Shown here in pieces: positions 35,650 to 36,006 of a stretch of 36,414 nt of DNA. Source of the stretch: Bacteroides sp. (lineage in GTDB: Bacteria; Bacteroidota; Bacteroidia; Bacteroidales; Muribaculaceae). The notes below the pieces were generated by a model, which saw nothing but the letters and a program-made list of their open reading frames with translations, was not told where the DNA came from and searched no databases. Position 1 is the stretch's first letter, and the number at the start of each line of letters is the position of its first letter. The DNA is taken from contig JAAVCG010000037.1 of the NCBI GenBank assembly GCA_014802435.1, positions 1-36,414 of the forward strand, in the 5' to 3' direction. A program made the translations under genes and the position numbers.

Positions 35650-35968
35650 TGGTTTATAAACAGAAATGCGCAGGAATCTGTATCTGTTGCCGTCCTACCA
35701 TTCGAGGCTTCTCGCATTGCCCTTTAGATGTTGGACGGCAACGCAGAAGCCCTACGCAATATATGTAACACTCTTTGCCCTTATGCTCACGCATAAAAGC
35801 CTGGGTATAACATATCCACGGGCATCTACCGTTGCCTAATCCCTGACATCTAAATGAAATTTTGCGAGAATTTCGAATGGTCAAGAATCAGCGCGGATAA
35901 ACGCTTTCTCAAATTATGTTGCTGCATCCCTCCCGCTGTCCCCGGACCGGGGCTTCGCGTTCGGTCTG
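35650..35968 (-). ncRNA. Candidate structured RNA or long regulatory leader on the minus strand
   Basis: Non-coding stretch read on the minus strand from the promoter at 35975-36006. A hairpin at 35777-35800 has ten pairs closed by a GUGA tetraloop, flanked by ATATGT/ACATAT pairing (35761-35766 with 35810-35815). A second hairpin pairs 35737-35751 with 35706-35721 (15 pairs, one bulge). A competing stem pairs 35733-35742 with 35686-35695 (10 perfect pairs); it shares 35737-35742 with the second hairpin, so both cannot form fully. Three base pairs in the first two helices are G-U on the minus strand but would be A-C mismatches on the plus strand. The 3' end is undefined; no strong terminator precedes the hypothetical gene, so a 5' leader is as likely as a free RNA. 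Confidence 0.55.
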
Positions 35969-35974
35969 CATCGG

Positions 35975-36006
35975 CAAAGTTAGTGAATATTTTCCAATTC
36001 TCCAAA
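35975..36006 (-). promoter_or_regulatory. Outward promoter at the left end of repeat copy 2
   Basis: Minus-strand TTTG (36003-36006), exactly 20 bp, TAACTTTG (35975-35982): a perfect match. It points into the structured region and on toward the hypothetical and BspA-like genes. Confidence 0.8.

Follow-up and report, generated by a model that had tools for sequence, protein, structure and literature searches.

The window analysed here, a stretch of 36,414 nucleotides, carries on its minus strand (35661..35910) a copy of a large, apparently uncatalogued structured RNA that often occurs in several copies per genome. On balance we read it as a cis-acting leader attenuator with copy-specific barcodes, serving the gene that begins about 50 nt further on, and we regard this as reasonably probable. 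The RNA probably sets the expression of many accessory genes, among them BspA-type adhesins, other exported proteins and a few defence genes. Its core spans about 250 nt and the predicted transcript, whose synthesis we infer, would run for about 310 nt up to a U-run. Unless stated otherwise, coordinates of the RNA and its surroundings refer to the minus strand.

Comparison with other genomes supports the existence of an RNA family. The window copy is a full match (249 bits) to covariance model R1, which was built from 35 copies including the window copy itself. With Rfam 15 at gathering scores, a tRNA at 15667-15747 was the sole match in the window, and at E values up to 5 there were six weak matches, none of them over the RNA core, in agreement with the initial annotation, in which no Rfam family had been recognised. 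No description of the family was recognised in the open-licence literature and it seems to be undescribed so far; it may stand as an anonymous entry among the 3161 candidate RNAs of human microbiomes (PMC8040213).

Homologues, which the initial annotation had proposed to seek in Muribaculaceae, were found across that family and the order, on a much larger scale than it reported. Nine matches were found in the genome of origin, among them a partial one of 134 nt and 52 bits. By DNA search all 11 genomes of the genus match, the genome of origin counted in, as do 200 of the 297 genomes of the family Muribaculaceae, with only two candidates scored per genome. The covariance model matched 86 of 393 genomes of the order, distributed over 49 of 205 genera, with at most five candidates scored per genome; ten other genomes of the family, scored more deeply, yielded 1 to 11 matches each, a few of which are weak antisense echoes. 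A strict pattern applied to named genomes gave, among the matches listed, Duncaniella, Muribaculum, Barnesiella, Paraprevotella, Phocaeicola, Bacteroides, Parabacteroides, Prevotella, Xylanibacter and others. Nine stretches from the pattern scans were rescored with the covariance model and all nine matched; model-confirmed carriers include Duncaniella muris, Paraprevotella clara, Phocaeicola oris, Xylanibacter rodentium and Barnesiella sp. WM24. Two contigs labelled Clostridia (Pseudoflavonifractor, Clostridiales) also match the model (L282, 5293-5519; L338, 1-100) and are likely mislabelled bins. Searches of plasmid and phage collections with the window copy gave no match, and the strict pattern found one match among viral contigs. 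There, on an 85-kb environmental viral contig (L389, 388-635), the RNA lies directly before an operon that by eye encodes EF-Tu-like, DnaK-like and HerA-like proteins. The comparisons below used a set of 161 copies at first and of 201 later.

Promoter and strand are likewise supported by the homologues. The -33 element TTTG (36003..36006) was read in the sequence and the -7 element TAACTTTG (35975..35982) in the sequence and the homologues, both where the initial annotation had placed them; of 201 copies, 180 have a TAnnTTTG box no more than 130 nt upstream of the RNA, compared with 56 of 976 background stretches. The folding energy of the minus strand is -140 kcal/mol (z -6.5) and the plus strand has a z of -4.1, with 0 of 100 shuffles as good in either case. 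Among 2756 cells of the two long-range helices A and K, 86 are G-U and 10 are A-C on the minus strand. Since G-U so far exceed A-C, the minus strand is the functional one, and the assignment previously made from a few G-U pairs in the window is upheld. A coding reading of the 76-residue minus-strand frame was rejected: a TTG stands at that place in 139 of 161 copies, and at least 60 codons are open in only 10 of these 139, which bears out the earlier statement that the leader holds no credible gene.

The helices of the window copy are arranged as follows. The core is closed by P1, in which AAAGCG (35902..35907) faces CGCAUUU at the start of the U-run (35664..35670), the pairing being imperfect in the window copy. 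A hairpin P0 (GACCG/CGGUC, 35945..35966) precedes the core on the 5' side, with a few co-changed copies noted by eye (L023, L027). In the 5' half, stem H (35880..35887 with 35840..35847) encloses the 5' strands of helices A, K and B, the 5' strand of K, CUCGCA (35863..35868), lying in the loop of hairpin E (GAAAU/AUUUC, 35856..35874); the ends of H overlap A and B by 2 nt. In the 3' half, stem C (GUUGCCGUCC, 35733..35742, with GGACGGCAAC, 35686..35695) encloses the 3' strands of A and B and hairpin I (35705-35722), whose loop carries the 3' strand of K, UGCGAG (35711..35716). The two halves are thus linked by three cross-contacts: barcode A (ACCAUUCGA, 35873..35881, with UCGAAUGGU, 35697..35705), barcode B (UUUAGAUGU, 35846..35854, with ACAUCUAAA, 35723..35731) and the loop-loop helix K. 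The 5' strand of helix G (GGCAACGG, 35829..35836) pairs with GUUGCC inside 35737-35746 and excludes C. Just before the U-run lies T, formed by GUAGGA (35693..35698) and UCCUGC (35670..35675), the former overlapping the 3' strand of C. All three stems named in the initial annotation are present. The GUGA hairpin (35777..35800) corresponds in the homologues to a variable peripheral stem, F, with its GUGA loop in the window copy; the 10-pair stem is C, and the 15-pair hairpin is D (35737-35751/35706-35721).

Covariation of the family on a plain sequence alignment is overwhelming. In alignment A1, made with MAFFT from 35 copies by sequence alone, 95.2% of the 1536 cells of helices P1, H, A, K, B and C are paired, and two-sided changes occur in 23 of 44 pairs. 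The 199 cells with two-sided changes compare with 60.4 (sd 5.9) in shuffles, none of 500 being as high, so that the covariation proposed earlier as a check was found. Slid controls on the same alignment reach 35-44% of cells paired, a comparison that favours the proposed helices because the structure was drawn from the same sequences that entered the tests. The weight lies on A, K, B and C, P1 having no pair with two-sided changes and H one. For G and T together, 8 of 11 pairs show two-sided changes, against 2.3 in shuffles.

The strands of each copy were also scored with each other and with the strands of other copies. In the set of 161 copies, own strands outscored foreign ones for A (19.8 vs 8.3), B (18.8 vs 8.5), K (17.8 vs 13.3), H (16.4 vs 13.4) and E (10.2 vs 8.8), and in the set of 201 for C (23.6 vs 16.2), T (13.9 vs 11.4) and P1 (15.3 vs 14.2); the copies were located with a model containing A, K and B, and neither these scores nor the alignment statistics take account of shared ancestry. 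Hairpin I is conserved without covariation and gave no such signal in the 161 copies. G is weak over the whole set (16.2 vs 15.6). The middle strand departs from GUUGC in 41 copies, and in most of the 30 of these 41 that were viewed the partner in G has changed too, as judged by eye and without a control. Stem C, the 10-pair stem of the initial annotation, is real and covaries strongly. Hairpin D was rejected as a covarying helix: it is 95.5% paired on the alignment, with 0 two-sided changes, no better than shuffles, and its excess in the self/cross comparison is small (18.7 vs 17.7). A further candidate, helix Q (GCGUGGG with CCUACGC), considered as an extra antiterminator, was discarded because its slight self/cross score was accompanied by 0 two-sided changes on the alignment.

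Barcodes A and B are long-range helices whose strands are hypervariable yet self-complementary. Over 161 copies the mean paired fraction of A is 0.97 with its own partner and 0.62 across copies; that of B with its own partner is 0.82 in the same count, an underestimate because of register shifts. Among these copies, 111 different 5' strands of A and 114 of B occur. A and B can be unrelated even in copies that share about 98% identity outside them, yet are nearly always self-complementary, and the differences between two paralogues of one genome (L018, L025) lie mostly in the four barcode strands. In a group of 13 pairs with 97% identity or more outside the barcodes, A and B agree in six and clearly differ in seven; and among 55 pairs with hairpin F 95-100% identical, which are not independent of one another, the A cores match at 0-3 of 5 positions in 46. 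Where related species carry the RNA before the same gene, the barcode is kept in three pairs (L119/L121, L112/L114, L151/L154) and changed in one (L122/L125), and identical barcodes stand before different genes in separate genera (L051, L043, L167; L101, L038). Barcode replacement is faster than that of the rest of the RNA, a pace that may reflect either selection or some copying process. Three copies have mismatched A strands (L049, L052, L198; in L052 those of B as well) resembling fused barcode types, and look like recombinants or assembly chimeras.

The notion of one barcode per genome was set aside. With 182 of the 201 copies used, 0 of 208 within-genome pairs share A, against 146 of 16263 between genomes, which is not significant because about 2 pairs would be expected; B is without such a trend (5 of 208 vs 344 of 16263), and both barcodes are shared by 0 pairs within and 39 between genomes. 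The barcodes may keep paralogous leaders from pairing with each other, or alternatively may address each leader's own terminated transcript in trans. Because copies within one cell have different A and B, a leader may assemble with its own strands alone. We tentatively posit a self-addressed system in which the paired barcodes are rewritten fast after duplication or transfer, and in which each leader, or its own terminated transcript in trans, recognises only itself; this is possible rather than probable. If it is true, gut Bacteroidales would have a set of orthogonal RNA switches distributed among their accessory surface and defence genes, and if the barcodes are functional addresses the family amounts to a natural library of such switches. 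It also poses a structural puzzle, two stems with three base-paired contacts of which two are free to vary.

The helices may represent either two stems tied by three contacts, or an alternation between a long rod (A-K-B-G) and two stems (H, C); in either case G and C are predicted to be mutually exclusive. Comparison supports this exclusion on paper at two points: the middle strand GUUGC may pair upstream (G) or downstream (C), and the downstream strand of C overlaps the terminator-like hairpin T, with covariation in both competitions. The initial annotation had likewise seen competing helices. Competition as such stood, and the pair it named, C against D, proved only half right, D being without two-sided changes. 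The two hypervariable barcode helices, the diversity of downstream genes and the spread through the order were beyond its reach. As for its riboswitch or attenuator logic, a promoter-driven structured leader with competing helices is strongly supported by the homologues, and the logic itself partly so. As in an attenuator, the leader stands on the same strand directly upstream of a gene, and a conserved terminator-like hairpin with a U-run is present, since T covaries and a run of at least four T ends the RNA in 187 of 201 copies. The conserved and covarying helix C, which overlaps the 5' strand of T, would be exclusive with this terminator.

Comparison supports a core closed by P1, with a 5' half folded into stem H and hairpin E and a 3' half folded into stem C. 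From these elements we infer a switch that would act on termination in the following direction. With A, K, B and C assembled, T would be prevented and transcription would run into the gene; with G holding the middle strand, T would form and transcription would stop at T and the U-run. C would block T through the shared 3' strand and G would allow T by sharing the 5' strand of C, and the switch would be biased to one side once A, K and B assemble.

Some observations around the U-run would also fit a translational leader, in which the folded core docks a small hairpin, Y, beside the ribosome entry site through helix X, opening and closing would set initiation, and T and the U-run would be part of the fold and not a terminator. 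By eye, hairpin Y lies between the RNA and the start codon in most copies, in the window at 35618..35641, ending 12 nt before the start codon. Between its loop GGGGAUG (35626-35632) and 35673-35678 about 5 pairs are possible (helix X), and the sequence that follows the RNA pairs into its own core better than across copies (14.3 vs 12.7 in the 161 copies; 16.2 vs 13.3 in a distant set). Pairing with AAA of P1 also accounts for the U-run. That of the window copy is broken (CGCAUUUCUGUUU), which counts against an attenuator, and the terminator-like combination of T and U-run is weak there. Helix X links across the U-run, which argues that the read-through RNA is functional. T covaries even though it is incompatible with C and with part of P1, which goes beyond the needs of a purely translational device, and we consider this alternative conceivable but rather doubtful.

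The attenuator reading places the RNA before a gene, and its position in the genomes agrees with this in part. The recurring unit consists of the promoter, the RNA and a start codon about 50 nt on. In 77 of 155 copies an open reading frame of at least 100 aa has its start 40-70 nt beyond the RNA. The same holds for 52 of 930 points taken at random and for 10 of 149 divergent points upstream, so that a preferred position before genes is supported; the absence of such a frame at this distance behind the other 78 of the 155 counts against an attenuator. The alternative already named in the initial annotation is a free RNA, here taken as a stable one that would end at the U-run and act in trans, for example bound to a protein, with the downstream genes as bystanders. 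Many large bacterial RNAs are free RNAs, and the family's own promoter and U-run, large long-range fold and multi-copy occurrence would suit such a role. We nevertheless consider it unlikely, because of the same-strand start codon at a preferred distance and because a hairpin past the U-run is able to pair into the RNA.

In the window the first gene downstream (35171..35605) encodes 144 aa with a Pfam SRA domain and the second (32034..35156) 1040 aa with BspA-type leucine-rich repeats and Big_2. The initial annotation had placed the RNA upstream of hypothetical and BspA-like genes; the BspA-type gene is indeed there, as the second, and the direct neighbour is the lone SRA-domain gene. When 134 first genes were scanned with Pfam, 13 matched the BspA-type LRR_5 family, and outside the leucine-rich repeat families no family had more than four first genes (among the 25 of 64 families listed). 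Single or paired cases comprise glycosyltransferases, outer-membrane barrels, methyltransferases, an SNF2/PLD-type defence helicase, a kinase and a UpxY-type antiterminator. An N-terminal hydrophobic segment, by a crude rule, occurs in 48% of 142 first genes vs 33% of 507 other reading frames, and the lipobox motif is not in excess (6% vs 5%). The downstream genes are without a common function, which would not usually be expected of a leader that senses a ligand. In several genomes of the order a protein of about 75 aa, by eye XRE-type helix-turn-helix-like, recurs as the first gene (L145, L155, L158, L190, L206, L207, L215, L216, L217) and may be a regulator linked to the RNA.

Unrelated genes behind near-identical RNAs, and barcodes shared across genera with different genes, would also be expected of a mobile cassette or recombination element, the folded strand being a recognition site or a bridge-RNA-like guide and the gene its cargo. 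In the window, two copies of a direct repeat, 91% identical over 228 columns (35975-36204 and 31740-31980, minus strand), lie on either side of the unit of RNA, SRA gene and BspA gene. The repeat stops at TAACTTT of the promoter, which would fit either an insertion of the unit at the start of transcription or its duplication. Direct repeats as general cassette ends were rejected, since flanking repeats of any sort occurred at 14 loci only. The two stems of the RNA, whose variable internal loops are paired, are reminiscent of the two loops of a bridge RNA (PMC11208160). The barcodes, on the other hand, pair with one another, unlike bridge-RNA guides, and are not above control in flanking DNA: at 157 loci, own 7-mers numbered 155 for A, against 187 (sd 10) and thus about 3 sd below control, and 369 for B, against 378 (sd 29), so that barcodes matching or taken from flanking DNA were rejected for the flanks tested. 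Joined A-B targets of the bridge-RNA type (window barcode, gaps 0-10) were absent from the genome of origin, and no transposase or recombinase stands among the 25 of 64 Pfam families listed for the 134 first genes. We thus give this explanation very little weight.

Other features of the flanks deserve mention. On the plus strand of the window, a 62-aa gene (30998-31186) overlaps a GNAT acetyltransferase gene (31180-31725; GNAT by Pfam), a layout that we take to be that of a GNAT-type toxin-antitoxin pair. An empty-site comparison at L102 was uninformative because the surrounding gene order differs between species. Three copies of the RNA (L029 at 1-51, and the ends of L020 and L046) are interrupted after CCUACG by one common kind of sequence, also found near contig ends elsewhere (contigs C6 and C19 of genome G000). 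It is possibly an insertion element that targets the 3' strand of the RNA; no transposase was identified.

Several known systems share parts of this architecture. Structured RNAs of Bacteroidota described before, namely Bacteroidales-1, Bacteroides-1, Bacteroid-trp, 6S-flavo and Flavo-1, all have Rfam numbers (PMC2864571), whereas the core here matches no Rfam family up to E 5. Integron attC sites share a variable, self-complementary fold beside diverse genes. They differ from the present RNA, which has a long conserved core, its own promoter and an RNA-type strand preference, and which lies before the gene and not after it; no arrays were seen, the loci scored (up to 5.8 kb) containing one sense match each and L051 a second, partial one (nhmmer).

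The bridge RNA of IS110 has two stems, each with an internal loop that contains two variable strands (PMC11208160). The RNA described here shares the two stems and the variable strands in internal loops; here, however, the strands of the two loops are complementary to each other, and no match of loop strands to DNA at the element was found in the flanks of the 157 loci or, for the window copy, in its own genome. The purine riboswitch fold likewise has a closing stem and stems whose loops pair together. The present RNA is several times longer and has three sets of long-range helices, two of them hypervariable, and no ligand pocket like that of the purine riboswitch was identified in it; the diverse downstream genes give no hint of a small ligand.

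With bacterial attenuator and riboswitch leaders in general the RNA shares its place before a gene, the promoter, the terminator-like hairpin with U-run and the mutually exclusive helices. It departs from them in that its genes have no common pathway, its long-range helices are hypervariable, Rfam holds no match and a distance of about 50 nt to very different genes is preferred. In kind the RNA thus resembles known leaders, and what is new is the combination of paired hypervariable contacts with unrelated genes.
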